From positions 1-64,000 of the forward strand of contig CACJQT010000005.1 of the NCBI GenBank assembly GCA_902595635.1: DNA of 64,000 bases. Reading direction: 5' to 3'. Source of the DNA: an uncultured Pelagibacteraceae bacterium (GTDB taxonomy: Bacteria; Pseudomonadota; Alphaproteobacteria; Pelagibacterales; Pelagibacteraceae). The first letter of the stretch is position 1, and each line of letters starts with the position of its first letter. Both the position numbers and the translations under genes were made by a program. The notes under the pieces are model-generated. The model did not search any database. It saw only the letters and a list, made by a program, of their open reading frames with translations, and had not been told where the DNA came from. Shown here one piece after another: positions 1 to 15,926 of this stretch.

Positions 1-396
1 AACGCTGCATTGAAAAGAAAATTTACAATTCCTATAAAATTTATTGGAAATACTCACGAAAAAAAAGAAATTAATTCTCAAATAAAACAATTAGGTCTTT
101 CAATTCAGTGTGGGGGTAGAGTCGCTAACCTTGGTGACAAAGTTAATAAATCTAAAGCAATTAATGTATTCTTAAAAATGGTTAAAAGTAAAATTAAAAA
201 TCCGATCAAAACTATTGGGGTTGGGGACAATCATAATGATATAAACATGCTTAAAAATACTGATATTCCATGCTTAGTTTTCAATAAGTATTTTAAGACA
301 ACTAACTTAAATATAAAAAAATTAATAACTTCCAGTAAGCCATCTCCTCAGGGCTGGGCTGATGTGATCAAAAAGGCGGTACTTAAATTAAAATAA
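1..396 (+). CDS. Glucosyl/mannosyl-3-phosphoglycerate phosphatase, HAD family (5' end cut off)
   Basis: This is the C-terminal part of a HAD-superfamily phosphatase. The reading frame is open to the left edge, so the TTG at 10 in the ORF track is not the true start. The motif GVGDNHNDINML matches HAD motif IV (GDxxND), which binds the catalytic magnesium, and an upstream lysine in VNKSKAINVF fits the conserved lysine of the family. The next gene, 17 bases downstream, is a GpgS-like glucosyltransferase. The likely job is therefore to remove phosphate from glucosyl-3-phosphoglycerate to give glucosylglycerate, a compatible solute without nitrogen. The sequence alone does not separate glucosyl from mannosyl substrates; the choice rests on the neighbour. 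The catalytic aspartate region lies outside the window. Confidence 0.75.
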   Translation, partial: NAALKRKFTIPIKFIGNTHEKKEINSQIKQLGLSIQCGGRVANLGDKVNKSKAINVFLKMVKSKIKNPIKTIGVGDNHNDINMLKNTDIPCLVFNKYFKTTNLNIKKLITSSKPSPQGWADVIKKAVLKLK

Positions 397-413
397 TGTG
401 ATTAGTAGCAGCC

Positions 414-1634
414 ATGAGTGAATTTTCACAAAATGGAATAGTCTCAACATTGCATGATTTTGGGACCAAATCCACCAAAGAAATAGAAGGTGAACTATTA
501 AAATTTTCTAGTGAGAGAAAAATGGAATTAATTTTACCATGTCTCTTCTCTGAGATTGAAGGTGATGCTTTACCCAATATCGTTTCAGAAATAAAAAAAA
601 CTAATTATTTAAATCACATAATTATAGGTCTCGATAAGGCTAACGAGGATCAAGCTAGAAAGGCATGGACTTTTTTCGAGCAACTTGAAACACCTTTTAC
701 AATTTTATGGAATGACGGACCAAATTTAAAAAAGTTAGACAAAGAATTAAAAAAAAAGGATTTAGCCCCAAGTGAAAAAGGTAAGGGTAGAAATGTATGG
801 TATTGTATAGGAATGTCAATTGCTAGAGATACAGCAAGATCTGTGGCTTTACATGATTGTGATATAAAAACTTATGACAGACGCATGCTAGCTAAATTGT
901 TTTATCCTGTTGTAAATCCTCTTTTTAATTTTGAGTTTTGTAAAGGATACTATCCAAGAGTTGCTGATGGTAAAATGAATGGCAGAGTTGCAAGATTATT
1001 AGTTTTTCCTTTATTGACAGCTTTAGAAAAAACTATTGGTAAAAGTGATTATCTAGATTTCATGAAATCTTTTAAATATCCTCTCGCAGGGGAATTTTCA
1101 TTTAGGCGTAATGTTTTACCTGAATTAAGGATTTCCTCTGACTGGGGTATAGAAATTGGAATTTTATCTGAAATGCAAAGGAGTTATTCTCCACAAAACA
1201 TATGTCAGGTTGATCTTGCAGAAACTTATGATCACAAGCACCAGAAACTATCTATTGATGATGAAACAAAAGGTTTGTCTAGAATGTCTATAGACATTAT
1301 AAAAACTTTTATTAAAAAATTAGCTACACAAGGACATTCTTTTAGTAGAGAAAAATTTAGATCTTTGAAAGCAACTTATTATAGGTCAGCTTTAGATTTA
1401 ATTGATATATATAGAAGTGATGCACAAATGAATGGTCTAAAATTTGATTCTCACACCGAAGAAAAGGCTGTTGAACTTTTTGCGATAAATATAATGAAAG
1501 CTGGTGAAGCATTTTATTTAAATCCTATGGATACACCATTTATTCCAACTTGGAGCAGAGTTAAAAGTGCTATTCCTGATTTTTTAGATAGGCTTCAAGA
1601 TGCTGTAAATGAAGATAACAAGCAATACATTTAA
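414..1634 (+). CDS. gpgS: Glucosyl-3-phosphoglycerate synthase-like glycosyltransferase
   Basis: A 406-residue GT-A-fold glycosyltransferase resembling GpgS (family GT81), which transfers glucose from an NDP-glucose to 3-phosphoglycerate. The segment ALHDCDIKTYDRRM near residue 145 carries the DxD-type metal and nucleotide-sugar site, and EFSFRR near residue 226 is in the acceptor-binding half. The length is typical for the family. The ATG at 414 is preceded in frame by a stop at 399, so the start is well fixed. It lies directly after the phosphatase gene, and the pair forms the two-step glucosylglycerate route. Mannosylglycerate synthesis is the alternative. The 3' end overlaps the convergent methyltransferase gene by four bases. 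Confidence 0.8.
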   Translation: MSEFSQNGIVSTLHDFGTKSTKEIEGELLKFSSERKMELILPCLFSEIEGDALPNIVSEIKKTNYLNHIIIGLDKANEDQARKAWTFFEQLETPFTILWNDGPNLKKLDKELKKKDLAPSEKGKGRNVWYCIGMSIARDTARSVALHDCDIKTYDRRMLAKLFYPVVNPLFNFEFCKGYYPRVADGKMNGRVARLLVFPLLTALEKTIGKSDYLDFMKSFKYPLAGEFSFRRNVLPELRISSDWGIEIGILSEMQRSYSPQNICQVDLAETYDHKHQKLSIDDETKGLSRMSIDIIKTFIKKLATQGHSFSREKFRSLKATYYRSALDLIDIYRSDAQMNGLKFDSHTEEKAVELFAINIMKAGEAFYLNPMDTPFIPTWSRVKSAIPDFLDRLQDAVNEDNKQYI

Positions 1635-2287
1635 TTTTTTTTTTTATTACAAACAAAAAATAATTTTCTTGGAAAAGAACCCTCTTCGAAATAATCAATA
1701 GACAAATTTTCATATCCATTTATTAAATTTTGTATTGTATTTTTTGAAAAAAAATGAATTATAAAACCATCTATTTCATATAAATCTTCTCCTCTATGAA
1801 TTCCTTTTTTATAGTCCCCATCATCAGTATTTCTGACTGTGTAAATATTTATTCCTCCCGGTTTTAAAATTCTATGAATCTCGCTATTAAGTTTGTCCAA
1901 ATCTTTCTGAGTTAAAGCCATGCAATAAAGCATATGTGAATAACAAGCATCAACTGAATTACTCTCAAATGGCAAGTCCTCTCTTATATCAAATTTTAAT
2001 GTAGAAATTGAAGATGTTAGATTTTCTTTTTTTATTTTTTCATTGATAACTTTAATTCCATTTTCACTATAGTCTAATGCGGTAACATTTATCGAATTTT
2101 TTCCAAAGTAAATGCTATCTCTTCCTAGGCCTGCTCCTAACTCAACAATTTTAGAACAATTGTTTTCTTTGAAAATATTTAAAGCTTTTTTTGCAGGTAA
2201 ACTTGGTTCTAAACCAAACATCTCAGGCTTATTTGAGAAATTAGTTTCCCAATGCTGAGATTGTCGGTTTAAAATATTTTTATCCAA
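1631..2287 (-). CDS. Class I SAM-dependent methyltransferase
   Basis: A 218-residue methyltransferase with a Rossmann fold. Motif I (VELGAGLGRDS, about residue 48) binds S-adenosylmethionine, the acidic end of strand 2 is ALDYSENGI, and the motif IV region is SVDACYSHMLYCM, followed by HRILKPGG, which is typical of methyltransferase domain 11/TehB-like proteins. The N-terminus (QSQHWETNFSNKPEMFG) resembles small thiol or metalloid methyltransferases, but the substrate cannot be read from the sequence. It is one base from the peroxiredoxin gene upstream on the same strand and is probably cotranscribed with it, which would suit a detoxification role. That link is inference. Confidence 0.75.
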   Translation of the reverse strand: MDKNILNRQSQHWETNFSNKPEMFGLEPSLPAKKALNIFKENNCSKIVELGAGLGRDSIYFGKNSINVTALDYSENGIKVINEKIKKENLTSSISTLKFDIREDLPFESNSVDACYSHMLYCMALTQKDLDKLNSEIHRILKPGGINIYTVRNTDDGDYKKGIHRGEDLYEIDGFIIHFFSKNTIQNLINGYENLSIDYFEEGSFPRKLFFVCNKKKN

Positions 2288-2288
2288 T

Positions 2289-2948
2289 TTACTTAGAGGG
2301 ATCTGGGACCTTTCTTAGATAAGGTTTTACAGTTTCCCATCCATCTGGATATATTTTTTTAGCTTCATCATCTTTAATCGCTGGCAAAATAACAACATCC
2401 TCTCCCTTTTTCCAATTAGCAGGAGTAGCTACTTTATGTTTAGCTGTTAGCTGCATAGAGTCTATTGCACGCAAAATCTCTAAAAAGTTTCTTCCAGTTG
2501 CCATAGGATATGTAAGATATAATCCAATTCTCTTATCAGGTCTGATTACAAAAATAGTTCTTACAGTTTCATTATCAACTGCAGTTCTACCCATTGAGGT
2601 TGTTCCAGCATCTGCTTCCAACATATTAAACAATTTTGCTACTTTTAAATCTTCATCAGCAATAATTGGATAATTTGGTTTTGTACCAGATACATCTTTA
2701 ATATCATCTAGCCATTTTTTATGATCCTCTACCCCATCAACGCTTAAACCAATTACTTTGACATTTCTTTTATCGAATTCATCTTTCATTAATCCTAAAG
2801 CACCAAGTTCTGTAGTACAAACTGGTGTAAAATCTTTAGGGTGTGAAAAAATAACTCCCCAACTATCACCTAACCATTCGTGAAAAGAAATATCTCCTTC
2901 AGTTGTTTTAGCTTGAAAATCAGGACACATACTATTTATTTTTAACAT
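2289..2948 (-). CDS. 1-Cys peroxiredoxin (Prx6 type)
   Basis: A 219-residue AhpC/TSA-family peroxidase that reduces hydrogen peroxide and organic peroxides in the cytoplasm. The peroxidatic cysteine is C44 in HPKDFTPVCTTELGA, the standard Prx active site. The long C-terminal part (about residues 150-219, with GEDVVILP and the closing KPYLRKVPDP) is characteristic of the Prx6 subgroup. No second resolving cysteine is evident; the other cysteine, near residue 8, is in the N-terminal strand. A very good ribosome binding site (AAGGAGGAGACA) precedes the ATG, and a promoter with a perfect TATAAT lies just upstream. The methyltransferase gene follows directly. Confidence 0.92.
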   Translation of the reverse strand: MLKINSMCPDFQAKTTEGDISFHEWLGDSWGVIFSHPKDFTPVCTTELGALGLMKDEFDKRNVKVIGLSVDGVEDHKKWLDDIKDVSGTKPNYPIIADEDLKVAKLFNMLEADAGTTSMGRTAVDNETVRTIFVIRPDKRIGLYLTYPMATGRNFLEILRAIDSMQLTAKHKVATPANWKKGEDVVILPAIKDDEAKKIYPDGWETVKPYLRKVPDPSK

Positions 2949-2971
2949 TGTCTCCTCCTTATAAAAAAAAT

Positions 2972-3000
2972 ATTATATGAAAGATTGTTTTACTAAGCAA
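2972..3000 (-). promoter_or_regulatory. Sigma70-type promoter of the peroxiredoxin gene
   Basis: Read on the minus strand, TTGCTT (2995-3000) and a perfect TATAAT (2972-2977) are separated by exactly 17 bases. The predicted start of transcription is near 2965, giving a short leader with the AAGGAGG ribosome binding site. The 74-base gap to the divergent persulfide dioxygenase gene must also hold that gene's promoter. Confidence 0.5.
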
Positions 3001-3022
3001 ACTTTTATAAAGTTAAGTATTT

Positions 3023-3718
3023 ATGATATTTGAACAACTTTTCGATCAAAAATCTTCTACATACACTTATATAATTGCAAGTGGTGAAGGTAGAGAAGCA
3101 TTAATAATTGATCCAGTCATTGAACATTCTGATGAGTATTCAACTATATTAAATAATTTAGATCTTAAACTTGTAAAAGTAATTGATACTCACATTCATG
3201 CTGATCACATCTCAGCATTAAATGAATTAAATAAAAGAACAAACTGTATAAGAGTTATGGGAGAAAAATCTAAATCAGAAGTGATAGATCTAAGAATTAA
3301 AGATGGTGAAAAAATTAAAGTTGAAGAAGTTGAACTTCAAGCAATTTATACTCCTGGTCATACTGATTGCTCATATAGTTTTTTGATGAATGATAGAGTT
3401 TTTACTGGAGATACACTTTTAATAAATGGAAGTGGTAGAACAGATTTTCAAAATGGTAATGCTTACGATGCTTACGATTCTATATTTAATAAACTATTAA
3501 AACTACCCGAAAAAACTCTCGTATTTCCTGCTCATGATTATAATGGCAAGAAATTTTCCACTATTGAAAATGAAAAAAATAATAATCCAAGATTACAAGT
3601 AAGCTCAAAAGAAGAATACGCAGACATAATGAACAATCTAAATCTTGCAAATCCTAAAATGATGGATGTCGCAGTGCCTGCTAATGTAAAAGGGCTTACT
3701 TTAGACAATATTAATTAA
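3023..3718 (+). CDS. ETHE1-like persulfide dioxygenase (MBL fold)
   Basis: A 231-residue metallo-beta-lactamase-fold protein. The metal motif is THIHADHIS (H57, H59, D61, H62), with TPGHTD near residue 112 and GDTLLINGSGRTDFQNG near residue 135. The last stretch and the C-terminal PAHDYNGKKFSTIENEKNNNP and VAVPANVKG are signatures of ETHE1-type persulfide dioxygenase rather than of glyoxalase II. The enzyme oxidises glutathione persulfide to sulfite. It stands 37 bases upstream of cysE and cysK on the same strand, so persulfide or sulfide removal and cysteine synthesis appear to be coordinated. No clear ribosome binding site precedes the ATG. Confidence 0.85.
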   Translation: MIFEQLFDQKSSTYTYIIASGEGREALIIDPVIEHSDEYSTILNNLDLKLVKVIDTHIHADHISALNELNKRTNCIRVMGEKSKSEVIDLRIKDGEKIKVEEVELQAIYTPGHTDCSYSFLMNDRVFTGDTLLINGSGRTDFQNGNAYDAYDSIFNKLLKLPEKTLVFPAHDYNGKKFSTIENEKNNNPRLQVSSKEEYADIMNNLNLANPKMMDVAVPANVKGLTLDNIN

Positions 3719-3755
3719 CTTTAAATTTCAACATTAATAACTATATAGGCAGTCT

Positions 3756-4331
3756 ATGAATGACTATTTGCAATCAATTATTGATAGGGATCCAGCGGCA
3801 AGATCTAAGTTAAGTGTAATATTAACGTACCCTGGCGTTAAGGCTGTATTTTTTCACAGAATTGCAAATTTTTTTGCTACTGCAAAATTCGATCTTATCG
3901 CAAGAATAATTTCTCAATTTTCAAGATTTTTAACTGGTATTGAAATTCATCCAAGAGCTAAGATAGGTAAAAATTTATTTATTGATCACGGTATGGGCGT
4001 CGTTATAGGTGAAACATCTGACATTGCAGATAACGTAACAATTTATCATATGGTTACTTTAGGTGGAATATCTCCAAGCATAAATTCCAATGATCAAAGA
4101 GAAATTAAAAGACACCCTACTCTTCATGATAATGTTGTTGTTGGTTCAGGGGCACAAATTTTGGGGCCTGTAGTTGTAGGGAAAAATGCAAGAATTGGTG
4201 CTAATGCAGTTGTAACAAAAAATGTTCCTGAAAATGCTGTTATGGTAGGAATACCTGCTAAGAATGTTGGAACAGCAACTGAAGAATTTAAACCTTATGC
4301 TGTTACAAATGGCAATGAGGAAAAAGAATAA
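3756..4331 (+). CDS. cysE: Serine O-acetyltransferase
   Basis: A 191-residue short-form serine acetyltransferase. It makes O-acetylserine from serine and acetyl-CoA, the first step of cysteine synthesis. Left-handed beta-helix hexapeptide repeats run from about residue 66 ([23 protein letters not shown]) to 175, and the [13 protein letters not shown] and VTLGG segments include the acetyl-CoA and active-site regions. The N-terminal helical domain is shorter than in E. coli CysE, as in many short bacterial forms. The stop codon overlaps the start of cysK by one base (TAATG), so the two are translationally coupled. Confidence 0.93.
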
Positions 4332-5332
4332 TGAAAAATTACAAGGATGATTTTATCCAATCAATTGGAAATACTCCTTTAATAAAACTGAAAGCTGCAT
4401 CTGAAATAACTGGCTGTAACATTTATGGTAAAGCCGAATATTTAAATCCAGGAGGATCTGTAAAAGACAGAGCAGCACTTGCTTTAATAAGGGATGCTGA
4501 ACAAAAAAAATTAATATTTAAAGGTGGAATAATTGTAGAAGGAACTGCAGGAAACACTGGCATTGGTTTATGCCTTATTGGAAATTCACTTGGTTACAAA
4601 ACGATTATTGTAATGAATGATAATCAAACTCAAGAAAAAAAAGATACATTAAGAAATATTGGTGCAGATTTAAAATTAGTTCCACCAAAACCTTATAAAG
4701 ATGAAAATAACTTTGTTAAAGTTGCTGCTAGAATGGCTGAAGACCTAAAAAGTTCAAATAATCACGGAGTTGTTTGGGCAAATCAATTTGATAATACAGC
4801 AAACTCAAAAGGTCACTATAATACAACGGGTCCTGAGATATGGGAACAAACTGAAGGTAAAGTTGATGGATTTGTATGTTCTTCTGGAACTGGGGGAACT
4901 ATTGGTGGAGTAAGTAGTTTTTTAAAAGAAAAAAATAAAGATATAAAAATTTATCTATCAGATCCAAAGGGATCCTCTCTTTACAATCACATTGAAAACG
5001 GTGAGTTAAAAGCTGAAGGTGGATCAATAACTGAAGGCATTGGATCCAGCAGAGTAACTGCTAATTTTGCAGAAGCAAAAATAGATGGAGCCTTTTCAAT
5101 TGAAGATAAAGAGTCTTTGCCAATACTATATGATTTAATCAAAAATGAAGGTTTAAGTCTTGGAACAAGTTGTGGAGTAAATATTGCAGGCGCAATAAGA
5201 TTGGGTAAAAAATTAGGACCAGGAAAAACTATTGTCACTATTCTTTGCGACAAATCAGACAGATACAACTCAAAGATGTTTAATAAACCTTTTTTAATTG
5301 AAAAAGGTTTACCTTATCCCGATTGGATATAA
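4331..5332 (+). CDS. cysK: Cysteine synthase (O-acetylserine sulfhydrylase)
   Basis: A 333-residue PLP enzyme of fold type II. The lysine carrying PLP is K45 in NPGGSVKDRAAL, the phosphate-binding loop is SSGTGGTIGG (about residue 185), and the substrate loop is EGTAGNTGIG (about residue 76). It joins O-acetylserine and sulfide to form cysteine. The asparagine loop reads GTAGNTG where many CysK proteins have GTSGNTG, as in several cystathionine-synthase-like members; the cysE partner still favours cysteine synthase. It is the last gene of the dioxygenase-cysE-cysK operon. Confidence 0.9.
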   Translation: MKNYKDDFIQSIGNTPLIKLKAASEITGCNIYGKAEYLNPGGSVKDRAALALIRDAEQKKLIFKGGIIVEGTAGNTGIGLCLIGNSLGYKTIIVMNDNQTQEKKDTLRNIGADLKLVPPKPYKDENNFVKVAARMAEDLKSSNNHGVVWANQFDNTANSKGHYNTTGPEIWEQTEGKVDGFVCSSGTGGTIGGVSSFLKEKNKDIKIYLSDPKGSSLYNHIENGELKAEGGSITEGIGSSRVTANFAEAKIDGAFSIEDKESLPILYDLIKNEGLSLGTSCGVNIAGAIRLGKKLGPGKTIVTILCDKSDRYNSKMFNKPFLIEKGLPYPDWI

Positions 5333-5348
5333 TCACGCATATCAGCAC

Positions 5349-5371
5349 TGTAATAAAACCATTACATTTTT
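5349..5371 (+). terminator. Weak terminator-like hairpin after cysK
   Basis: TGTAAT and ATTACA form a 6-bp stem with a six-base loop, followed by five T. The stem is weak and AT-rich, so it may be chance, but it is correctly placed at the end of the sulfur operon. Confidence 0.3.
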
Positions 5372-5414
5372 AACTTACAATAAATAATAATAATTAAAAA
5401 ATTAAGGAAATTTT

Positions 5415-5789
5415 ATGGACGCAAAAGAAGTAGTTAAAAAAGGATATGAACTTTTTGGCAAAGGAGATATGGAGGGATTTATGGAAATGGTACATGATGA
5501 TATCACTTGGATTTATCCTGGGGATAAGCATCCAATGTCAGGAACTCATAAAGGCAAAGAGGCATATATGAAAACCATGATGCAAGTTCCAAATCTTTGG
5601 AGTAATTTTTCAGTAACCCCTGATATGATGATTAGTGAGGGGAATAAAGTGTTTGTTAAAGCAACTGCTAAGGCAGATGGCATGGATACTATTTTTGGTC
5701 ATTATTTTGAAGTAGGCGATGATGGTAAACTGACATTATTTATTGCGTTTGATGACACACTAAGCATGTTCAATGCAATTAAGAAGTAA
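5415..5789 (+). CDS. SnoaL/NTF2-like small protein
   Basis: A 124-residue protein with an NTF2/SnoaL-like alpha-beta cone pattern: an N-terminal helix (VVKKGYELFGKGDMEGFMEMV), then HDDITWIYPGD, then strands ending in FIAFDDTLSMFNAIKK. Members include ketosteroid isomerases, epoxide hydrolases and many proteins with no known activity, so no reaction is assigned. A good ribosome binding site (AAGGAAATTTT) precedes the ATG. It is the first gene of a run of ten small genes on the same strand, reaching 9200 with very short gaps, and is likely cotranscribed with them. A second SnoaL-like gene lies at 7623. Confidence 0.75.
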   Translation: MDAKEVVKKGYELFGKGDMEGFMEMVHDDITWIYPGDKHPMSGTHKGKEAYMKTMMQVPNLWSNFSVTPDMMISEGNKVFVKATAKADGMDTIFGHYFEVGDDGKLTLFIAFDDTLSMFNAIKK

Positions 5790-5795
5790 GAGTTT

Positions 5796-6263
5796 ATGAA
5801 AAAATTATATTTTATTTTAATTTTCGTATTTATGTCGAGTACAGCTTTTGCTGAGCAAGGACAAATTAAACAAACTGGTTTTTTCTCTGGCACTTCTAAA
5901 GTTATAGGTGATGATAAAGGCAATTTTTCGATAATATATGAAGGAACTATTGGTAATAAAGCTATTGAGGGAACAACTTTTGGTGACAGATCTTCATCAT
6001 ATTGTGTTGGATCAATTGTTGGACTTAAAGGAAAAGGTTTTGAGACAGGCGTTTGTATAAACAAATTTGAAGATGGTAGTACTACAACAACACATTACGA
6101 AGGCGTAATGGGAAAAATATTAAGATGGAAGTTTGTAAGTGGAACAGGGAAATATGAGAATATTTCTGGAGGTGGAACAACATCTTATGCGCAAATTGAT
6201 TCAGCTAAAGATGGAGTTGTACAATCTTACAATCAAATCGTTGGTACTTATAATTTGAACTAA
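5796..6263 (+). CDS. Secreted beta-barrel protein of unknown function
   Basis: A 155-residue protein with a clear Sec signal peptide (MKKLYFILIFVFMSSTAFA, cleavage after AFA). The mature part is almost all beta strand, rich in glycine and threonine. The segment FVSGTGKYENISGGG is similar in style to the gap-loop motif of allene-oxide-cyclase/dirigent-type barrels, which suggests a small-molecule-binding barrel in the periplasm. Two cysteines (SSYCVG and TGVCIN) could form a disulfide. I do not recognise a specific family, and the barrel suggestion is only pattern-based. It lies six bases after the SnoaL-like gene. Confidence 0.6.
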   Translation: MKKLYFILIFVFMSSTAFAEQGQIKQTGFFSGTSKVIGDDKGNFSIIYEGTIGNKAIEGTTFGDRSSSYCVGSIVGLKGKGFETGVCINKFEDGSTTTTHYEGVMGKILRWKFVSGTGKYENISGGGTTSYAQIDSAKDGVVQSYNQIVGTYNLN

Positions 6264-6276
6264 CTGAAAGGAAAAA

Positions 6277-6675
6277 ATGAAAAAAACAATTTTAGTATTA
6301 ATTTTAAGTTTATTTACAGCTAATGTTTACGCAGATAGCCATGTAAAGAGAATTTTATCAACAAGTCAAACAGGAATGGGAAATGATATTGTATACCCTA
6401 CAGGAAAAGCAAAAATAACAGCTTTTGAATTTACTGTACCTGTAGGAGCTCCAGTAACTCCTCATACGCACTCATTTCCAGTTCTAATTATGATTCAGCA
6501 AGGTGAAATTGAATTAATTCATGAAGGAAAAACCCAAGTATTCAAAGCTGGTGATGCATTTGTTGAAGATGTTGGAATTGTACACGAGTCGAAAAATATT
6601 GGAAATGTTCCAGTTAAAGCGATTGTAGTTGCAATTGGTGTCGAAGGACAGAAAATTATGACACCGGTAAAATAA
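6277..6675 (+). CDS. Secreted single-domain cupin
   Basis: A 132-residue protein with a signal peptide (MKKTILVLILSLFTANVYA) and one cupin domain. Motif 1 is seen in TPHTHSFPVLIMIQQGEIELIHEG (metal-type histidines in PHTHS) and motif 2 in GDAFVEDVGIVHESKNIG. The metal ligands H, H, E-like and H appear plausible, but no substrate can be named. The protein would act in the periplasm, beside the secreted barrel protein encoded just upstream. A ribosome binding site (GAAAGGAAAAA) is present. Confidence 0.8.
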   Translation: MKKTILVLILSLFTANVYADSHVKRILSTSQTGMGNDIVYPTGKAKITAFEFTVPVGAPVTPHTHSFPVLIMIQQGEIELIHEGKTQVFKAGDAFVEDVGIVHESKNIGNVPVKAIVVAIGVEGQKIMTPVK

Positions 6676-6688
6676 AAAGGAAAAAGAA

Positions 6689-6979
6689 ATGATCATAAAA
6701 ATAGAAGAAAATATAAAATCATTTTCATCTTGGATGAATATGGTAAAAGCGAATGCTGAAAAAATTAAAGGATTTGGTGCTACGATTATTTTTGCAGGTG
6801 TATCAAAAGAAGACCCTACAAAATTTACTGTAATCGTTAAGTATGCAACCATGGAAGGTTTTGAAGCATTTAAAAATGACAAAGAACTTCATGCAGCAAG
6901 AGCTGAAGCAGGCGTGGATTTAGATTCAGCAAAGGTTACACCGATGCATGAAGATTTTATGGAAAATTTTAGTGGATAA
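6689..6979 (+). CDS. Small ABM-like alpha/beta protein (DUF3764-like)
   Basis: A 96-residue cytoplasmic protein with the alternating strand and helix pattern of dimeric ferredoxin-like (ABM) barrels: strand MIIKIEENI, helix SFSSWMNMVKANAEKIKG, then strands TIIFAGVS and FTVIVKYAT and helix EGFEAFKND. It resembles its neighbour at 7007 in length and layout and may be a distant tandem paralogue. The family guess (DUF3764) is from memory and untested. Its function is unknown. Confidence 0.55.
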   Translation: MIIKIEENIKSFSSWMNMVKANAEKIKGFGATIIFAGVSKEDPTKFTVIVKYATMEGFEAFKNDKELHAARAEAGVDLDSAKVTPMHEDFMENFSG

Positions 6980-7006
6980 ACAATCAATATAAAGAAAGGA
7001 TAAAAT

Positions 7007-7297
7007 ATGGAAACAGAAACACTAGTAGTAGCTCATTTAAAAGAAGGTATGTTAGAAAAATTTATGGGCTTTATGCAATCAGATGCTGGTATGGCAGAAA
7101 GATCGAAAGTTGCAAATGTATCAAAAACAATTGGAACAGTTGCACCTGACAAAAAAACAGTAATGTTTAAAATTTTTGTGACCGATAAAGCTGCTCTTAA
7201 AGCTTTTATAGATGGAAGCAATCCAGTATCAGCTCCAGTTATGAAAGAAGTTATGGAAAGTTACAGTGTCTACGAATTAAATAAAGTAGATATGTAA
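7007..7297 (+). CDS. Small ABM-like alpha/beta protein (DUF3764-like)
   Basis: A 96-residue protein with the same length and secondary structure order as the gene before it (strand, helix LEKFMGFMQSDAGMAERS, two strands with VMFKIFVTD, helix KAALKAFIDGSNP, final strand ESYSVYELNKVDM). The helix-strand plan suggests a ferredoxin-like dimeric barrel. A strong ribosome binding site (AAAGAAAGGATAAAAT) is present. The function is unknown; the context is a cluster of small barrel and cone proteins. Confidence 0.55.
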   Translation: METETLVVAHLKEGMLEKFMGFMQSDAGMAERSKVANVSKTIGTVAPDKKTVMFKIFVTDKAALKAFIDGSNPVSAPVMKEVMESYSVYELNKVDM

Positions 7298-7320
7298 TAA
7301 TTTTTGTAATAAGGTTTGTA

Positions 7321-7611
7321 ATGCCTTCAGGATATATCATATTAAATATTAATGTGTTAAATCCTGAAAATTACAAAGAGTATTTGGAAAAAGCTCCTCC
7401 AACTGCTCAAATGTTTGGTGGCGAGTACATAATAAGAGGTGGCGAAAATGAAGTCATTGAAGGTGAGTGGAAATATCCAAGAACTGTTGTAATTAAATTC
7501 CCATCTTATGAAAAAGTTTTTGAGTGGTACAATTCAGAAATATATAAACCTATCAGACAAATTAGATTAGATAATACAGTATCAAATACATTAATAATTA
7601 AAGGAGCATAA
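7321..7611 (+). CDS. DUF1330 family protein
   Basis: A 96-residue protein matching the DUF1330 pattern: GYIILNINVLNPENYKEYL at the start, then FGGEYIIRGGENEVIEGEW and RTVVIKFPSYEKVFEWYNSEIYKPIRQIR, close to the family's usual ending. Family members form ferredoxin-like dimers; their biochemical role is not established. It sits in the small-protein operon, third of three dimeric-barrel-type proteins in a row. Confidence 0.85.
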   Translation: MPSGYIILNINVLNPENYKEYLEKAPPTAQMFGGEYIIRGGENEVIEGEWKYPRTVVIKFPSYEKVFEWYNSEIYKPIRQIRLDNTVSNTLIIKGA

Positions 7612-7622
7612 AGGAGAAAAAA

Positions 7623-7943
7623 ATGTCAATATTAGAAAAATATAGTGCTGCAATTAAAAATAAAGATGAAGCAGCAATGAACGAACTTTTGCATGATGAT
7701 TTTAAATTCACAATGCATAAATCAGGGAGTGTTTTAACTAAAAGTGATGTTATCAAATGGGCAATGAGTGGTGACATTAAGCAAGATAAAACTAGAATTG
7801 TTTATGAAAATGATGAAGTTGGTGTTCACCATGCGTTTGTAACATTTGATGATGGTAATGTAGAAGCAGTTATGGCAGTCTACAAATACAAAGATGGCAA
7901 AATGATTAGTTTAGAAACTGGCGCAACGCCAATGCCAAAATAA
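7623..7943 (+). CDS. SnoaL/NTF2-like small protein
   Basis: A 106-residue protein with the NTF2-like order: helix MSILEKYSAAIKNKDEAAMNELL, then HDDFKFTMHKSGSVLTKSDVIKW, strands DEVGVHHAFVTFDDGNVEAVMAVYKYKDGKM. The HDDF step parallels HDDI in the first SnoaL-like protein of the operon. No catalytic assignment is possible. The ribosome binding site AAAGGAGAAAAA is good. The next gene begins on the base after the stop codon. Confidence 0.7.
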   Translation: MSILEKYSAAIKNKDEAAMNELLHDDFKFTMHKSGSVLTKSDVIKWAMSGDIKQDKTRIVYENDEVGVHHAFVTFDDGNVEAVMAVYKYKDGKMISLETGATPMPK

Positions 7944-8540
7944 GTGAACAACATAGATTTTTATTTTTCTATTGGAAGTACTTATACTTATCTTTCGGTT
8001 ACTCGAGCACTAGAAGCAGAAAAACAACATCAAATTAAGTTTAACTGGACTCCTTTTAGTGTGAGAGCAATAATGAAAGAAATGAACAATGTTCCCTTTC
8101 CTAAAGAAAAAAAAAATAAAGTAGATTACATGTGGAGAGACATAGAAAGACGAGCAAAAAATTATGGATTTTTTGCTAAAACACCAGTCCCTTACCCTTT
8201 AACAGAATTTGATTTAGCTAATAAAATTGCAATATTAGGTTTAAAAAATAATTGGGGTGTAGATTACGTTCAGCTTACGTATAAACGATGGTTTCAAGAA
8301 GGAAAAGAGCCTGCTGTTGAACCAAACTTGAGTGAAATCTGCGAAAAACTAAGCTTAGATAAAGAAAAGATTGTTTCAGAGGCAAGCTCTGAGGAAGTTA
8401 ATAATATTTATTTATCAAATACAGAAAAGGCTAGAAAAAATAAAATATTTGGAAGTCCGTCATTTATTGTAAAAAATGAAATATTCTGGGGAGATGATAG
8501 AATGGAAGATGCAATCAAATGGTCGAAGGCAAATGAATAA
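7944..8540 (+). CDS. DsbA/GST-kappa-fold protein, 2-hydroxychromene-2-carboxylate isomerase-like
   Basis: A 198-residue thioredoxin-fold protein with an inserted helical domain. IDFYFSIGSTYTYLSVTRA at the start matches the HCCA isomerase/GST-kappa opening, where a serine and aromatic residues bind glutathione. The C-terminal FGSPSFIVKNEIFWGDDRMEDA is the usual FGVPTF...FWGQDRL ending of the family. Those enzymes are glutathione-dependent isomerases in aromatic degradation, but no other aromatic pathway gene is here. The start is a GTG immediately after the previous stop, and no other plausible start exists. Its 3' end overlaps the SMR gene. Confidence 0.82.
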   Translation: MNNIDFYFSIGSTYTYLSVTRALEAEKQHQIKFNWTPFSVRAIMKEMNNVPFPKEKKNKVDYMWRDIERRAKNYGFFAKTPVPYPLTEFDLANKIAILGLKNNWGVDYVQLTYKRWFQEGKEPAVEPNLSEICEKLSLDKEKIVSEASSEEVNNIYLSNTEKARKNKIFGSPSFIVKNEIFWGDDRMEDAIKWSKANE

Positions 8541-8868
8541 TATAACTGCTTATATAATTTTATTAATCGCAGTAATTCTTGGAACAGCATCTAACAGTTT
8601 TGCTAAAAGTGCTCAAGGTTTTACATTATTAATACCTAGTATAATCACAGCAGTAACAATTGTTGGATGCATGTATACTTTGTCTTTAGTTATGAAAAGT
8701 ATACCAGTTGGAATAACGTATGCCTCTTTTGCGGGCCTATGTATAATTGCTACAGCTGCTGTTGGTGTTATAAAATTTAATCAAGTACCAAATTTTTATA
8801 CAATAATTGGATTGATTTTAATTATATCGGGTGTCTTAATAGTTAACTTATTAGGAACAAATAAATGA
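8533..8868 (+). CDS. SMR-type four-helix membrane protein, subunit 1 (no Glu14)
   Basis: A 111-residue protein with four membrane helices and the small-multidrug-resistance layout (QGFTLLIPS, then SIPVGITYASFAGL, then GLILIISGVLIVNLLG). I chose the ATG at 8533 rather than the track's 8476, because this start places helix 1 at the N-terminus as in all SMR proteins and overlaps the previous stop by eight bases. Aligned without gaps to EmrE from the K22/GF region, the essential E14 is glycine (G17 here) and W63 is phenylalanine. It forms a pair with the next gene (ATGA overlap), like the heteromeric EbrAB and MdtIJ systems. Proton-coupled drug export is doubtful without the glutamate. Confidence 0.82.
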   Translation: MNNITAYIILLIAVILGTASNSFAKSAQGFTLLIPSIITAVTIVGCMYTLSLVMKSIPVGITYASFAGLCIIATAAVGVIKFNQVPNFYTIIGLILIISGVLIVNLLGTNK

Positions 8869-9200
8869 AACCATTATCTGGTTATATTTATTTAGTATTA
8901 GCTATATCAACAGGAATTGCCGCAAATAGTTTTGCTAAAATTTCAGATGGATTTTCAAAATTAACTCCAACGATATTATCAATAGCTTTTATGTGTATAA
9001 CTATGTATGGACTTGCAAAAGCTATGTCTATGATACCAGTAGGTTTTACTTATGCTACTTATAGCGGGATAACAGTGGCTGCTATTTTAGTCTTCGGTAT
9101 GATTAAATATAACCAGATACCAAATATGTATGGGTTAATTGGGATTTTTTTAATTATTATTGGCGTTGTAATGGTTAATTATCTTGGAAGAATTAATTAG
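8865..9200 (+). CDS. SMR-type four-helix membrane protein, subunit 2 (no Glu14)
   Basis: A 111-residue partner of the previous gene, with the same four-helix plan and clear sequence similarity to it (ANSFAKISDGFSKLTPT against SNSFAKSAQGFTLLIPS). The motif AISTGIAANSFAK aligns with AIATEITGTLSMK of MdtJ, so the membrane glutamate is again glycine (G17), and the position of EmrE W63 is tyrosine (TYATYSG). The two proteins probably make a heterodimer in the inner membrane. The start overlaps the previous stop (ATGA). The 3' end overlaps the convergent EamA gene. Confidence 0.82.
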   Translation: MKPLSGYIYLVLAISTGIAANSFAKISDGFSKLTPTILSIAFMCITMYGLAKAMSMIPVGFTYATYSGITVAAILVFGMIKYNQIPNMYGLIGIFLIIIGVVMVNYLGRIN

Positions 9201-10096
9201 CTCTTATTAAGTAATAAAATTAGTACTCCTACTACAAATATAATTATCCCTAAAATTTCTGTAATTTTAACTTTTTCTTTAAACATATACTTTGAAGACA
9301 CGTAGCTAAATAATAATTCTATTTGGCCGATAGCTCTAACAAATGAAGACTGTATTAATGTAAAAGCGTAAAACCAAGATAATGTTGCAAGAAATCCAGC
9401 TAACCCTGCTGTCAAACATTCGTACTTGTTTTCATATAATTTTTTAAACTGTGTCTTTTCAAATATAATTAAATAAATAGTAACTAATGTTGTTTGTATA
9501 ACTAGACCAAAAAATAGGGTTGCTATAGCTTTTTCAAAGTTATTACTAAAATTTTCCAATGTTAATGCTGATGCTCTAAAATATACAACGCTTAAACCCA
9601 GGAATAGCCCTGCGGATAAACCAATTAAAGTTGTTTTTGAAAATAAGTTTTTTAGAAATAAACTTAAGTCTTTAATCGAAAGTATAATTACTCCAATTGT
9701 AGATACGATAATACCTGTTATTCCAAATTTATTTAATTTGTCCCCTATTATCAAATATTCAAAAATTGCAACCTGAATAACTTCAGTCTTACTTAATGAA
9801 GTTCCAACTACAAAATTAGCAAATCTAAATAAGTAAAGTAAAACAAATGTAAAAATTATTTGGAAAATTGAACCTAATAATACGTTAAATATAAATTTTT
9901 TTTGACTTAGAATTTCAGGGATTACATTTAAGTCTTGAAAATACAAAAAAAATAAAATTGTCCCAAATGGTAATGCAAAAGCAAATCTTACATAAGTAGA
10001 TGCAATAGTTGATACCTTTTGATTAAGTTTTTTCTGTAAAGTTGATCTAAGATTTTGAAAAAAAGCCCCAGAAATAGCTACAATTATCCAATTCAT
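9197..10096 (-). CDS. EamA-type drug/metabolite transporter (DMT family)
   Basis: A 299-residue inner-membrane protein with about ten hydrophobic helices in two repeated halves, the standard EamA layout. The first half ends near VIILSIKDLS (about residue 145), and the second repeat ends with ILGIIIFVVGVLILLLNKS. The substrate is unknown; DMT exporters and importers handle amino acids, nucleotide sugars and many metabolites. It converges on the SMR pair and overlaps it by four bases, so it has a separate promoter. Its start is only 75 bases from the divergent dctP gene. Confidence 0.82.
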   Translation of the reverse strand: MNWIIVAISGAFFQNLRSTLQKKLNQKVSTIASTYVRFAFALPFGTILFFLYFQDLNVIPEILSQKKFIFNVLLGSIFQIIFTFVLLYLFRFANFVVGTSLSKTEVIQVAIFEYLIIGDKLNKFGITGIIVSTIGVIILSIKDLSLFLKNLFSKTTLIGLSAGLFLGLSVVYFRASALTLENFSNNFEKAIATLFFGLVIQTTLVTIYLIIFEKTQFKKLYENKYECLTAGLAGFLATLSWFYAFTLIQSSFVRAIGQIELLFSYVSSKYMFKEKVKITEILGIIIFVVGVLILLLNKS

Positions 10097-10111
10097 TGAT
10101 GATTATTAATA

Positions 10112-10140
10112 TTGTATTTAATTTTAAAGTCGACTTAAAT
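10112..10140 (+). promoter_or_regulatory. Possible dctP promoter with a palindromic operator
   Basis: TTGTAT (10112-10117), a 17-base spacer and TTAAAT (10135-10140) could be a sigma70-type promoter. The perfect 10-base palindrome AAGTCGACTT (10127-10136) lies across the spacer and the -10 element, where a bound repressor would block RNA polymerase. Both calls are by eye and tentative. Confidence 0.35.
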
Positions 10141-10171
10141 AGTATCATTTAACAAAAAAGAGGGAAATAAC

Positions 10172-11161
10172 ATGAAAATCTTAAAAAGAATAATATTTTC
10201 TCTGATTTTCGTTTCTTTTGCCAGTGCAAGTTTGGCAGAAACAAAAATGAGAATTACGCTTCAATTACCATTAAAGGCTCACTTAGGTCAGAACCTTTTG
10301 GTATTTAAAAAAGAATTAGAATCTAGATCAGACATTAAAGTAGAGATTTACGACTCTGCACAACTTTACAAAGATAAAGAGGTACCACAAGCTGTAGGTT
10401 CAGGAGCGATCGAAGCTGGTGTTGCATCTATAACAAGATTTGCAGGAACTAATCCTGAAGTTGATGTTTTTTATCTTCCATTCTTATTTGATTCAGAACA
10501 AAAAGTAAGAAAAGCAACTCAAGCTGGATCTGAGATAAGAGCTATTCTTGATCCTGCAATAGCAAAGACAGGAGCAGTTCCACTTTATTATCAAGCTTAT
10601 GGATCAGCAATTATGTTGTCCAATGGTGGCCCGATGAAAACTCCAGCTGACTTTAAAGACAAAAAAATCAGAGTATTTGGAAAAACACTTGGAGCTTTTG
10701 TAAGTTCTTTAGGTGGTAAACCAGCTTTAATATCTGGATCTGAGCAATATTTAGCTTACCAAAGAAATACTGTTGATGCAGGTATGACCGGTGTATCTGG
10801 TGTAAAATCTAGAAAATTATATCAAGTAATGGATACTTTAACCGTTACAAACCATGGCGATATCGAATTCGTTGTTGTTGCTAATGACAAATGGCTAAGC
10901 TCATTAACTCAAAAACAAAGAGACGCTATAGCTGAAGCATCAAAAGTAGCTGAAAAAGCTGTTAGAGATGACATGGCTAATATCGAAGCTGGGGCTTACA
11001 AAGAAGCAAAAGCAAATGGAATGAACATTGTAAACCTAAGTAGTTCTGAAGTTTCTGCTCTTAAAAAAGCATCGTCATCTGTTATTGATGATTACATTTC
11101 TAGAACAGGTGGAGCTGGTGGAGTTGGTGATCAACTTGTAAAAGCTGCAAACAAACTTTAA
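10172..11161 (+). CDS. dctP: TRAP transporter solute-binding protein, DctP family
   Basis: A 329-residue periplasmic binding protein with a signal peptide (ending SFASASLA). The DctP fold is shown by VPQAVGSGAIEAGVAS, PFLFDSEQKVRKA and the conserved arginine region DKKIRVFGKTLGAFVSSLGG (about residues 167-187), where an arginine usually pairs with the substrate carboxylate. The ligand is therefore probably a carboxylic acid. The closing EISRT-like segment (VIDDYISRTGG) is also typical. The ribosome binding site GAGGGAAATAAC is good. A strong hairpin follows directly, before the membrane subunits. The downstream lyase and hydroxyacid dehydrogenase suggest a branched or hydroxylated dicarboxylate, but this is inference. 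Confidence 0.92.
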   Translation: MKILKRIIFSLIFVSFASASLAETKMRITLQLPLKAHLGQNLLVFKKELESRSDIKVEIYDSAQLYKDKEVPQAVGSGAIEAGVASITRFAGTNPEVDVFYLPFLFDSEQKVRKATQAGSEIRAILDPAIAKTGAVPLYYQAYGSAIMLSNGGPMKTPADFKDKKIRVFGKTLGAFVSSLGGKPALISGSEQYLAYQRNTVDAGMTGVSGVKSRKLYQVMDTLTVTNHGDIEFVVVANDKWLSSLTQKQRDAIAEASKVAEKAVRDDMANIEAGAYKEAKANGMNIVNLSSSEVSALKKASSSVIDDYISRTGGAGGVGDQLVKAANKL

Positions 11162-11173
11162 ATCGTATAAATA

Positions 11174-11197
11174 CCCCGCACGTAAGTGCGGGGTTTT
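11174..11197 (+). terminator. Intercistronic terminator/attenuator between dctP and dctQ
   Basis: CCCCGCAC (11174-11181), loop GTAA, GTGCGGGG (11186-11193), then TTTT. The 8-bp GC-rich stem is striking in this AT-rich DNA. It ends seven bases before the dctQ ATG, and its right arm holds the only G-rich stretch that could serve as a ribosome binding site for dctQ. Confidence 0.85.
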
Positions 11198-11200
11198 CAA

Positions 11201-11677
11201 ATGAATACCTACGACAAAATTGTAAAATATTCTGGCTATTTAGCTTCAGCGTTATTTATTATGATAGGCTTTATAGTTTCTTATGAAGTTATCATGAGAT
11301 ACATATTTAATTCACCTACTATTTGGGTAAATGAAATTTCTCGATTTTTACAAATTTGGGCCACTTATTTAGCTTTAACTTATACTTTTCATAAAAATGA
11401 TTTTATCAGAATAACAGTTATATATGACAAAGTAGGAGATAAAGGAAAAAAGATATTAGATTTAATAAGTGCAATATTCATTTTAATTTTTAGTGGATTT
11501 GTACTTTATTTTGGATGGTTAATTGCTTACGACTCTCTTAAAGTTGGGAGAACAAGCTCTACAATTTTAGATGTTCCATCCTTTCTTACAGAATTTGCGA
11601 TACCATTATGTTTTGCATTTTTAGTAATAAGAGTGCTTTTTGAAGTACCTAAATACATCAAAGATATAATTAAATGA
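11201..11677 (+). CDS. dctQ: TRAP transporter small permease, DctQ family
   Basis: A 158-residue inner-membrane protein with four hydrophobic helices. The family pattern is clear in YEVIMRYIFNSPTIWVNEISRFLQIWATYLAL, matching the usual RYxF..P..W..E..R.L..W..F. I reject the track's GTG at 11186, because it lies inside the terminator stem; ATG 11201 gives a normal DctQ N-terminus. It ends in an ATGA overlap with dctM. Together with DctP and DctM it makes a sodium-driven TRAP importer. Confidence 0.9.
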   Translation: MNTYDKIVKYSGYLASALFIMIGFIVSYEVIMRYIFNSPTIWVNEISRFLQIWATYLALTYTFHKNDFIRITVIYDKVGDKGKKILDLISAIFILIFSGFVLYFGWLIAYDSLKVGRTSSTILDVPSFLTEFAIPLCFAFLVIRVLFEVPKYIKDIIK

Positions 11678-12945
11678 CAGTAGCAATAATCTTATTTTTG
11701 TTATTTTTTGTACTTTTTTTAGGAGTGCCAATAGCATTTGGTTTAGGTTCCATAGGATTGGGTTTAATGTTATTTGGAGATATTTCTCCTTTAATGATCC
11801 CACAAACTTTTTACAGTGTGGCAGATAACTTTATTTTATTAGCTGTTCCGATGTTTTTGATGATGTCTAATATATTGTTAAAAGCAGGTGTTGGAGAAGA
11901 TCTTTTTAATTTTGCTCAAAGCTGGGTTGGAAATTTTCCAGGGGGTTTAGCAATAGCAACTATTGTTTCTTGCAGTATTTTTGCTGCTATATCTGGATCA
12001 TCAGTGGCTACTGCTGCAACAATCTCAACTGTAGCATTTCCTGCAATGATTAATAGAGGTTATCACAGAAATTTTACTTTAGGTATTTTGGCAGCGGGTG
12101 GAACTTTAGGGATTTTAATTCCTCCATCAATTCCAATGATTGTTTATGCATTTGTTGTTGAAGAGTCTGTACTAAGTATGTTTCTTGCAGGAATTGGGCC
12201 AGGAATAGTTTTAGCATTATTTTTTATTATCTTTTCAGTTTTTTACGTAAAATTTTTTAATAAAGAAGTTCAAAATGTATCCAGTACTTTAGAAGAAAAA
12301 ATTAAATACACAAAAAGAGGTTTGCCAATATTATTAATGGCCTTCATCATGCTAGGTGGAATTTATGCTGGAATTTATACACCAACAGAGGCAGGTGGTA
12401 TTGGTTTTTTAATATCATTTATCTATGTTGTGGCTAAAAAAAGATTAGATTTTAAAGGTTTTATCGAAGCTGGTTTGGAGACAATGAAAACTACAGTTAC
12501 TATATTTATAATTATTGCAGGAGCTAAAGTTTTTGGTAAAGCAATTTCTCTTTATAGAATTCCTCAAGATTTATCATCTTTCATAGTTACTAATATTAAT
12601 GAGACTGGTTTATTTATACTAGTTGTTTGTATTACTTTGTTAATCTTAGGATTTATAATGGAAACTCTTTCATTAATTTTAATCATGATGCCTATATTTT
12701 CGATTTCAATCGCTGCAATGAATATTGATTTAATTTGGTTTGGAATAATTTTTACACTAATGATTGAGTGTGCATTAATTACACCACCCGTTGGACTAAA
12801 TATTTATGTTCTCCAAGCAATTGGTAAAGCAAAAATGTCAGAAATAGCTAAAGGTGTGATACCTTTTGTCATTATAATGTTATTTACAGTATTTGTTATT
12901 TACTTATTCCCTGACCTAGCATTATATATACCTTTTAAATTATAA
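11674..12945 (+). CDS. dctM: TRAP transporter large permease, DctM family
   Basis: A 423-residue membrane protein with about a dozen hydrophobic segments, the transport channel of the TRAP system. Family signatures include GVPIAFGLGSIGL at the start, ISGSSVATAATISTVAFPAM near residue 108, GILIPPSIPMIVYA near residue 147, and YTPTEAGGIG near residue 237. The length is normal. It starts inside the dctQ stop codon and is followed two bases later by the lyase gene, so transport and catabolism are in one operon. Confidence 0.94.
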   Translation: MTVAIILFLLFFVLFLGVPIAFGLGSIGLGLMLFGDISPLMIPQTFYSVADNFILLAVPMFLMMSNILLKAGVGEDLFNFAQSWVGNFPGGLAIATIVSCSIFAAISGSSVATAATISTVAFPAMINRGYHRNFTLGILAAGGTLGILIPPSIPMIVYAFVVEESVLSMFLAGIGPGIVLALFFIIFSVFYVKFFNKEVQNVSSTLEEKIKYTKRGLPILLMAFIMLGGIYAGIYTPTEAGGIGFLISFIYVVAKKRLDFKGFIEAGLETMKTTVTIFIIIAGAKVFGKAISLYRIPQDLSSFIVTNINETGLFILVVCITLLILGFIMETLSLILIMMPIFSISIAAMNIDLIWFGIIFTLMIECALITPPVGLNIYVLQAIGKAKMSEIAKGVIPFVIIMLFTVFVIYLFPDLALYIPFKL

Positions 12946-12947
12946 AT

Positions 12948-13823
12948 ATGTTTTCAAAAATAAAATCAAAAGATAAAGCAGAACAATTAAGACAATTATT
13001 AAATGGACCAGAAATAATTGTAATGCCAGGATGCTTTGATGCATTATCAGCAAAATTAATTGAAAGAGAAGGTTTGAAAGTTGGATTTATGTCTGGCTTC
13101 AGTGTTTCATCTACAAAGCTTGGTATGCCGGACACAGGTTTAATTTCTTTTTCTGAAATGGCAGAACAAGTAAGAAATATATGTAATGCTACATCAATTC
13201 CAATAATATTTGATGGGGATACTGGATATGGAAATTCAGTGAACGTATTTAGAACTGTAAGAGGATATGCGGATGCAGGAGCAGCTGGTGTGATGATTGA
13301 AGACCAAAAGTGGCCAAAAAAATGTGGTCACACAAAGGGTAAAGATGTTGTCGATCTTGATGAGGCAAACTCAAGAATTAAAGCTGCGGTGGATGCAAGA
13401 GAATATGGAAATAAAGATATCTTAATAATGGCAAGAACTGATGCCATAGCAACTAGAGGATTAGATGATGCAATTAAAAGAATGCAATCTTTTTCAAAAC
13501 TTGGTGTTGATATTTTATTTATTGAAGCTGTTAAAAATAAAGAAGATATGAAAAGAATTATTAAAGAAGTTCCAGGTCATCATATGTTAAATTTGATCGA
13601 AGATGGTGAAACCCCATTATTGGAAATTAATGAAATAGAGGAAATTGGTTATAAAATTGCTGTAATGCCTCTAACCCTAATGAGTGCATCAGTAAAAACG
13701 ATGCAAGAATGTTTGAATAATATGAAAAATAAAGTTTATAATAAAAATGTTTCTAAATTTTCAGACTTAAGAGATATAGTTGGCTTCAACGAATATTACG
13801 ATATTGAAGACAAATATAAATAA
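12948..13823 (+). CDS. Isocitrate lyase/PEP mutase-family lyase
   Basis: A 291-residue TIM-barrel enzyme. The family signatures are PGCFDALSAKLIEREG, FDGDTGYGN (metal-binding aspartates), MIEDQKWPKKCGHTKGK, and MARTDAIATRG. The catalytic-loop cysteine of true lyases is present (KKCGH), so a carbon-carbon lyase such as methylisocitrate or 2,3-dimethylmalate lyase is more likely than a phosphonate mutase. LGMPDTGLISFSEM resembles the dimethylmalate-lyase/oxaloacetate-decarboxylase subgroup. It is cotranscribed with the TRAP transporter, whose substrate may be its substrate or a precursor. The exact reaction remains open. Confidence 0.82.
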   Translation: MFSKIKSKDKAEQLRQLLNGPEIIVMPGCFDALSAKLIEREGLKVGFMSGFSVSSTKLGMPDTGLISFSEMAEQVRNICNATSIPIIFDGDTGYGNSVNVFRTVRGYADAGAAGVMIEDQKWPKKCGHTKGKDVVDLDEANSRIKAAVDAREYGNKDILIMARTDAIATRGLDDAIKRMQSFSKLGVDILFIEAVKNKEDMKRIIKEVPGHHMLNLIEDGETPLLEINEIEEIGYKIAVMPLTLMSASVKTMQECLNNMKNKVYNKNVSKFSDLRDIVGFNEYYDIEDKYK

Positions 13824-14044
13824 TGTTTCCAAAAAAATTTTCTAAAATTCTTTTCGTTTTTTTTATGGGTTTAGGAATGAGTTTGTTAATGACCCTAATT
13901 ATTACATTTATAAATACAGGTTATGATGAATTTTATTATAAAAGATTTTTCAAAGCTTGGTCTATTAGTTTGCCAGTTGCATTAGTTGCAACGACTTTTG
14001 TTGCACCATTGGTTAATAAATTAGTGGAAAAAATTACTAAATAG
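13823..14044 (+). CDS. DUF2798-type two-helix membrane protein
   Basis: A 73-residue protein with two membrane helices (FFMGLGMSLLMTLIITFI and ISLPVALVATTFVAPLVNKLV) and the KRFFKAWSISLPVAL segment typical of DUF2798. The function of this family is unknown. Its ATG shares one base with the stop codon of the lyase gene, so it is coupled to the TRAP operon. Confidence 0.75.
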   Translation: MFPKKFSKILFVFFMGLGMSLLMTLIITFINTGYDEFYYKRFFKAWSISLPVALVATTFVAPLVNKLVEKITK

Positions 14045-14056
14045 AGAGGATGTCAT

Positions 14057-15917: not shown

Positions 15918-15926
15918 TTCACCTCC

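Follow-up and report, generated by a model that had tools for sequence, protein, structure and literature searches.

The stretch of DNA analysed here, 64,000 nucleotides from an uncultured Pelagibacteraceae (SAR11) bacterium (GenBank assembly GCA_902595635.1, contig CACJQT010000005.1; hereafter the window), carries ten small open reading frames (ORFs), g1 to g10, directly behind cysE and cysK. An initial annotation of the sequence had described these as an operon on one strand with gaps of 0–27 bases or overlaps, and all ten ORFs are indeed found at the positions listed below, on the + strand. Comparison with related genomes makes it almost certain that the locus, which we refer to as the island, is a mosaic operon behind cysE-cysK, as opposed to a one-off of this genome or a set system of ten genes. 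Locus counts in the list refer to the 79 Pelagibacter loci of the comparative sample described below.

Upstream anchor, 3023–5332, + strand: metallo-β-lactamase (MBL)-fold hydrolase (GloB/persulfide-dioxygenase-like), cysE and cysK; the island begins directly after cysK in Pelagibacter.
g1, 5415–5789, + strand: SnoaL_2 (NTF2-like) protein of 124 amino acids (Pfam, 1.8e-12); accessory, 22 of 79 loci.
g2, 5796–6263, + strand: 155 amino acids, signal-peptide-like N-terminus, predicted allene oxide cyclase (AOC)/dirigent-type barrel; accessory, 25 of 79 loci.
g3, 6277–6675, + strand: cupin of 132 amino acids whose N-terminus resembles a signal peptide (Cupin_2, 4e-12); accessory, 6 of 79 loci.
g4, 6689–6979, + strand: 96 amino acids, DUF3764/ABM-like dimeric α+β-barrel protein; accessory, 17 of 79 loci.
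g5 (ABM5), 7007–7297, + strand: 96 amino acids, predicted dimeric α+β-barrel fold; core, 55 of 79 loci.
g6, 7321–7611, + strand: 96 amino acids, DUF1330 (Pfam, 4e-29); 44 of 79 loci.
g7 (S7), 7623–7943, + strand: 106 amino acids, SnoaL/DUF4440 (NTF2-like); core, 68 of 79 loci.
g8, 7944–8540, + strand: 198 amino acids, GTG start, DsbA/kappa glutathione S-transferase (GST)-like relative of 2-hydroxychromene-2-carboxylate (HCCA) isomerase; 25 of 79 loci.
g9, 8533–8868, + strand: SMR-like protein with four transmembrane (TM) helices, Gly replacing Glu14; Multi_Drug_Res.
g10, 8865–9200, + strand: second SMR-like four-TM protein, Gly replacing Glu14; Multi_Drug_Res.
EamA-type transporter, 9197–10096, − strand: convergent, the right-hand border in the window's subclade.

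The gaps from g1 through g8 measure 6, 13, 13, 27, 23, 11 and 0 bases, after which g8/g9 and g9/g10 overlap by 8 and 4 bases, and, as had been annotated, the ten-gene stretch contains neither a regulator nor a large enzyme. The ORFs are not products of chance, as near-identical strains keep the same reading frames as g1–g10 and purifying selection acts on the families (see below). An Rfam search of window positions 1–16000 returned two chance matches only, both far below the gathering score.

The ten proteins comprise six fold types (NTF2-like, AOC/dirigent barrel, cupin, dimeric α+β barrel, thioredoxin/kappa-GST-like and SMR), two more than originally counted. NTF2-like relatives of g1 are present in the PDB (3fgy and 3ebt), while Pfam matches g4 to DUF3764 (4.8e-6, plus weak DUF1330/ABM) and g7 to DUF4440/SnoaL_2; PDB sequence searches gave no match for the g4 family or for the SCO and F50 families of related islands, and only a marginal one for g7. 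Although Pfam gave no match above cut-off for g2 or g5, their earlier labels of barrel and ABM-like protein are backed by AlphaFold monomer predictions run with family alignments, for which neighbours were identified using Foldseek. The g5 model (pLDDT 94.8) is a ferredoxin-like α+β fold whose nearest solved structures are the ABM, LsrG and NIPSNAP-type dimeric barrels (probability 1.00), and by this model g5 belongs to the dimeric α+β-barrel fold; g4 and g6 resemble the same barrels by Pfam, whereas g5 has no Pfam match and only ~10–19% identity to the solved relatives. The g2 model (pLDDT 85.9) is an eight-stranded AOC/dirigent-type barrel at fold level only, with dirigent proteins, AOC, DUF3224 and the Diels-Alderase PyrI4 as neighbours at TM scores of ~0.5; sequence identity to the AOC, dirigent and DUF3224 barrels is ~7–17%, and unlike them g2 is bacterial and carries a signal peptide. 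For g8, a Pfam DSBA match (1.4e-26) is accompanied by a near end-to-end alignment with the kappa-GST-like HCCA isomerase (PDB 2imd, 7.6e-14), whose catalytic Ser, cis-Pro loop and GxP...WGxDR motifs it retains; it differs in having STYTY instead of SPFSY and in the absence of naphthalene or aromatic pathway neighbours.

Folds of this kind could point to natural-product tailoring, with the ABM, SnoaL, cupin and AOC/dirigent-barrel proteins taking the part that cofactor-free oxygenases and cyclases play in aromatic polyketide pathways. The fold neighbours of g5 do include SnoaB, FasU, OAC and WhiE-ORFI, and PyrI4 and dirigent proteins are among those of g2, as described; however, the loci examined show no polyketide synthase or other scaffold-forming enzyme within the island or next to it, and we consider such a role highly unlikely.

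For the comparative sample, loci were chosen by cysK only from Pelagibacter genomes at least 90% complete. Together with the window, the 80 loci taken gave 79 usable loci after exclusion of L179, which is cut at a contig end, and L250, which has no island. We relied on this cysK-anchored sample because an earlier one, with 47 arrangements in 83 loci, had been selected by island genes (g7 or DUF1330). Of the 80 sampled genomes with contig sequence beyond cysK, 79 have an island there; the exception is L250. Relatives keep the genes together and not scattered. The annotated mix of cytoplasmic and periplasmic proteins with small-molecule-binding folds is real and recurs, and it seems not to have been described before. 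The fixed ten-gene unit, by contrast, does not survive the comparison: the 79 loci hold 68 distinct ordered contents drawn from ~25 small families, with 2–14 island genes per locus on the coding strand and no gene common to all. Locus L223 has about eleven island genes; L237, which is with L225 and L254 among the few loci keeping only island fragments, has little beyond two SMR genes at the site. With S1, BAR, CUP, ABM4, ABM5, S7 and HCCA-like denoting the families of g1, g2, g3, g4, g5, g7 and g8, respectively, the most frequent are SMR (74 loci), S7 (68), DUF2798 (58), ABM5 (55), SEC11 (54), TM4 (54) and DUF1330 (44), followed by SCO4226-like (40), F50 (31), HCCA-like (25), BAR (25), S1 (22), CUP2 (19), GYD (18), ABM4 (17), CUP (6) and others. 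The 639 gaps between island genes have a median of 11 bases, and 85% are shorter than 30 bases. An integron cassette array, which shares with the island its interchangeable single-gene units, was rejected because these gaps are too short for attC sites, which are longer; in addition, gene order is conserved in the island and no integrase was recognised in the loci read.

The very high turnover, the exchange among strains described below and the lack of a universal gene would suit a neutral recombination hot spot, in which the stretch after cysK gathers unrelated small genes that are tolerated there. Gene order, however, is conserved far above shuffles. Over the 119 family pairs that co-occur at least five times among the 68 distinct contents, the majority order holds for 95.2% of ordered pairs and 90 family pairs are never inverted, compared with 60.9% agreement (maximum 63.5%) in shuffles. 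Because relatives inherit order by descent, the test was repeated with one locus from each of 21 cysK clusters defined at 85% nucleotide identity, and consistency held across clades at 93.7%, as against 67.4% (maximum 72.7%) for shuffles. Purifying selection, the finding that g5 never occurs without g7 in Pelagibacter (55 of 55 loci), the persistence of the same families as a group at different chromosomal positions in two further lineages, and the narrow range of folds also argue against a neutral hot spot, which appears rather improbable.

Near-identical strains reveal how the content changes. In these, g2 is present, swapped for an allele ~75% alike in nucleotide sequence, or scarred between g1 and g3 (L031 8361–8490 and L034 8415–8545), where the signal-peptide start and the last bases remain, indicating gene loss by internal deletion; in another of these strains, L083, g1–g4 are gone altogether. 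Alleles of g3 that are 79–83% alike in nucleotide sequence are found in strains whose adjacent genes are 95–100% alike, and the swapped g2 alleles stand between equally similar flanks. Across the sample, g5 identity barely tracks cysK identity (Spearman 0.13), with g5 as low as 40% identical where cysK exceeds 93% and up to 100% identical where cysK is below 85%; g8 identity, unlike that of g5, does track cysK (0.85). Horizontal exchange of island genes is very probable. Some g2-type genes encode nearly the same mature protein with different signal peptides (L088 1404–1868 and L134 2846–3325 versus L060 and L127), and the shared signal-peptide/ribosome-binding-site sequence may serve as the recombination joint. 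Median ratios of nonsynonymous to synonymous substitution (dN/dS; Nei-Gojobori, dS 0.1–1.2) lie between 0.05 and 0.21 in most families, near the 0.08 of cysK, with values of 0.11 for S7, 0.09 for HCCA-like, 0.05 for CUP2, 0.06 for F50 and 0.05 for GYD.

In a sample of 197 genomes of the order, 87 have relatives of g5, as do 40 of 52 genomes of the family f32, which we take to be akin to HIMB59; outside SAR11 and f32, samples of 289 genomes from the class and 399 from the phylum yielded none. In the sister genus g229 the set SEC11-DUF1330-ABM5-(SCO)-TM4-x-GYD lies away from cysK, and its ABM5 is 93–96% identical to some Pelagibacter ABM5 and nested among them on well-supported forks, while its cysK is only 58–60% identical to that of the window. 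The transfer across genera is seen from the g5 tree and this difference in identity, as PEP (phosphoenolpyruvate) carboxylase, the intended core-gene yardstick, gave no match in g229. In f32, again away from cysK, ABM5 is followed by S7 in all 21 loci examined, either directly or with CUP2 or CUP2-F50 between them. The smallest version outside Pelagibacter (g229/f32) consists of g5 and g7, and for this reason, together with the constant pairing in Pelagibacter and the ABM5-then-S7 order in f32, we name these two genes the core. Slot order, content turnover, allele swapping, transfer between genera, purifying selection and the minimal g5+g7 core are all shown by the loci analysed.

The position of the cluster also bears on a thiol-based detoxification of electrophiles, in which cysteine from cysE-cysK would lead to glutathione, and g8, a VOC glyoxalase, the GloB-like MBL protein and a peroxiredoxin would be the detoxifying proteins. 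Consistent with this, the best NCBIfam matches of the MBL protein are GloB and Blh, a 1-Cys peroxiredoxin adjoins the MBL gene in relatives, a GCS2-type glutamate-cysteine ligase is encoded in the source genome, and some islands include VOC. Outside Pelagibacter, however, in both g229 and f32, the cluster is not beside cysK, and within the sample g8 (25 of 79 loci) and VOC are minority members. The tie to cysteine and glutathione metabolism is therefore weak, and we give the detoxification scheme little credence. In strain HTCC1062, cysK and cysE were unresponsive to sulfur limitation (PMC5069961), which neither supports nor tests the thiol link. The peroxiredoxin gene (L031 4866–5525, − strand) is divergent from MBL-cysE-cysK in many relatives, and beside it lies a gene similar to the methyltransferase portion of MduS.

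Flexible genomic islands (fGIs), or hypervariable regions, of SAR11 and HIMB59 have been described as occupying the same position with variable content of presumed equivalent function, and as spreading by homologous recombination (PMC2217521, PMC4033161, PMC10734472). The island resembles these in its constant chromosomal position, its content variability between close relatives, which are two of the features that define an fGI, and its homologous recombination; beyond this, its versions have fold types in common. It differs in that it is a compact, tightly spaced one-strand operon with single-gene turnover and a held relative order, and in that it encodes tiny proteins of small-molecule-binding folds, unlike fGIs with their genes for surface polysaccharide, transport or phosphate. 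Defence islands likewise have content that varies at a fixed site and is often exchanged. However, PADLOC gave no match for any of the ten proteins, PHROG matched only the SMR pair (to QacE-like morons and unknown families), viral contigs hold no relatives of g5 or g7, and no nuclease, NTPase or toxin-like gene was recognised, so that a role in defence or competition is extremely unlikely. The Arctic SAR11 glycine-betaine island also holds an SMR gene, with an otherwise different gene set. In a transfer study of tropical-ocean single-cell genomes, only a phosphonate operon was reported as recently shared between Pelagibacterales and HIMB59 by the criteria of that study (PMC12416821). No description of the locus was found in the open-access papers searched, which covered SAR11 in connection with SMR, DUF1330, SnoaL, ABM and cupin/cysteine synthase; such an absence is no proof of novelty.

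Both g9 and g10 exceed the Multi_Drug_Res cut-off and thus match the four-TM SMR sequence profile, and g10 shares with EmrE and the SMR exporters its four-TM length and a 105-residue alignment. Unlike EmrE, though, these proteins lack the glutamate, as had been noted for the pair, and Gly stands at the Glu14 site in all 187 distinct SMR-like sequences (g9, g10 and relatives), which make up an entire glutamate-free subfamily. Additionally, TM1 is free of charged residues from −8 to +3 around the site, and Asn (+4) and Lys (+8) beyond it are invariant in the 187 sequences. As Glu14 is replaced by Gly, EmrE-type proton-coupled antiport is unlikely on sequence grounds, and the export initially proposed becomes doubtful for proteins without the glutamate that couples export to protons. 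Nor is the membrane pair a set part of the island: in many loci there is a single SMR gene, an SMR gene on the opposite strand, or no SMR gene at all.

The explanation we favour is a mosaic, order-conserved SAR11 operon of interchangeable enzymes, most of them cofactor-free, and binders of reactive small molecules, an explanation which taken whole we regard as evenly balanced between right and wrong. Homologous recombination and deletion, acting gene by gene in coexisting strains, would swap small, self-sufficient proteins through fixed slots behind cysK, and each strain's gene set may be matched to the compounds of its own niche. A shared small-molecule task is the reading we prefer because these folds occur in cofactor-free or metal-dependent enzymes acting on small molecules and in small-molecule binders, with the defence, natural-product and neutral hot-spot readings less well supported; whether all products have one such task in common is, in our judgement, a question with even chances either way. 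In this scheme, the products would act jointly on small molecules, with g5 (ABM/LsrG-like barrel) and g7 (SnoaL/NTF2-like) performing the core cofactor-free chemistry, possibly an isomerisation, cyclisation or oxidation, on a carbonyl, enol or quinone-like compound that would be reactive and probably hydrophobic. Accessory proteins would widen the substrate range, in the cytoplasm through α+β-barrel, NTF2, cupin, VOC and HCCA-isomerase-like members and in the periplasm through AOC-barrel, cupin and cupredoxin members, and the Glu-free SMR-like proteins could serve not as proton antiporters but as uncoupled carriers or as facilitators. The handling of a reactive small molecule, as first suggested, is a reasonable if tentative inference; that the substrate is an electrophile or an oxidised compound is possible but doubtful.

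Several points weigh against this explanation. No island gene has a known substrate, no expression, genetic or biochemical data on island genes were found in the open-access literature searched, and one common task is unproven because the shared folds are versatile. A few family orders differ between Pelagibacter and the other lineages, with DUF1330 before ABM5 in g229 and CUP2 before F50 in f32. Furthermore, dN/dS is higher for ABM5, TM4, SMR, DUF2798, BAR (0.56) and ABM4 (0.81), several of which lump subtypes, and many of the pairs compared are near saturation.

In its boldest form, the explanation would make g5+g7 the two-protein core of a new cofactor-free system, found only in SAR11 and in bacteria like HIMB59 and converting some reactive compound common in the sea, and would make the glutamate-free SMR-like proteins a new class of carrier, with strains recombining single accessory enzymes into fixed slots in a combinatorial operon evolution at population scale; we think this unlikely. 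SAR11 bacteria rank among Earth's most abundant cells, and although their genomes are streamlined, they retain about ten tiny genes that are constantly reshuffled at one spot. If the favoured explanation is true, the island would be a system for small molecules that is widespread in the surface ocean and not yet described, and also an operon in which single genes come and go while the order stays fixed. The minimal pair g5+g7 and the glutamate-free SMR subfamily provide directly testable units.

Further genes are found at or near the island in individual genomes. A carboxymuconolactone-decarboxylase/AhpD-like gene with a CxxC motif (F17, 130 amino acids) is often present at the island's far end (L184 and others). 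Between cysK and the small genes, L052 has an FMN (flavin mononucleotide)-dependent lactate-dehydrogenase-like gene (10069–11223), and L215 has a gene of 385 amino acids there. Paralogues of g6 (DUF1330) are present elsewhere in the source genome, and on its contig C3 (L039 9026–9830) one directly follows a small CysE-like acyltransferase gene, with a TM4 gene ~2 kb off.

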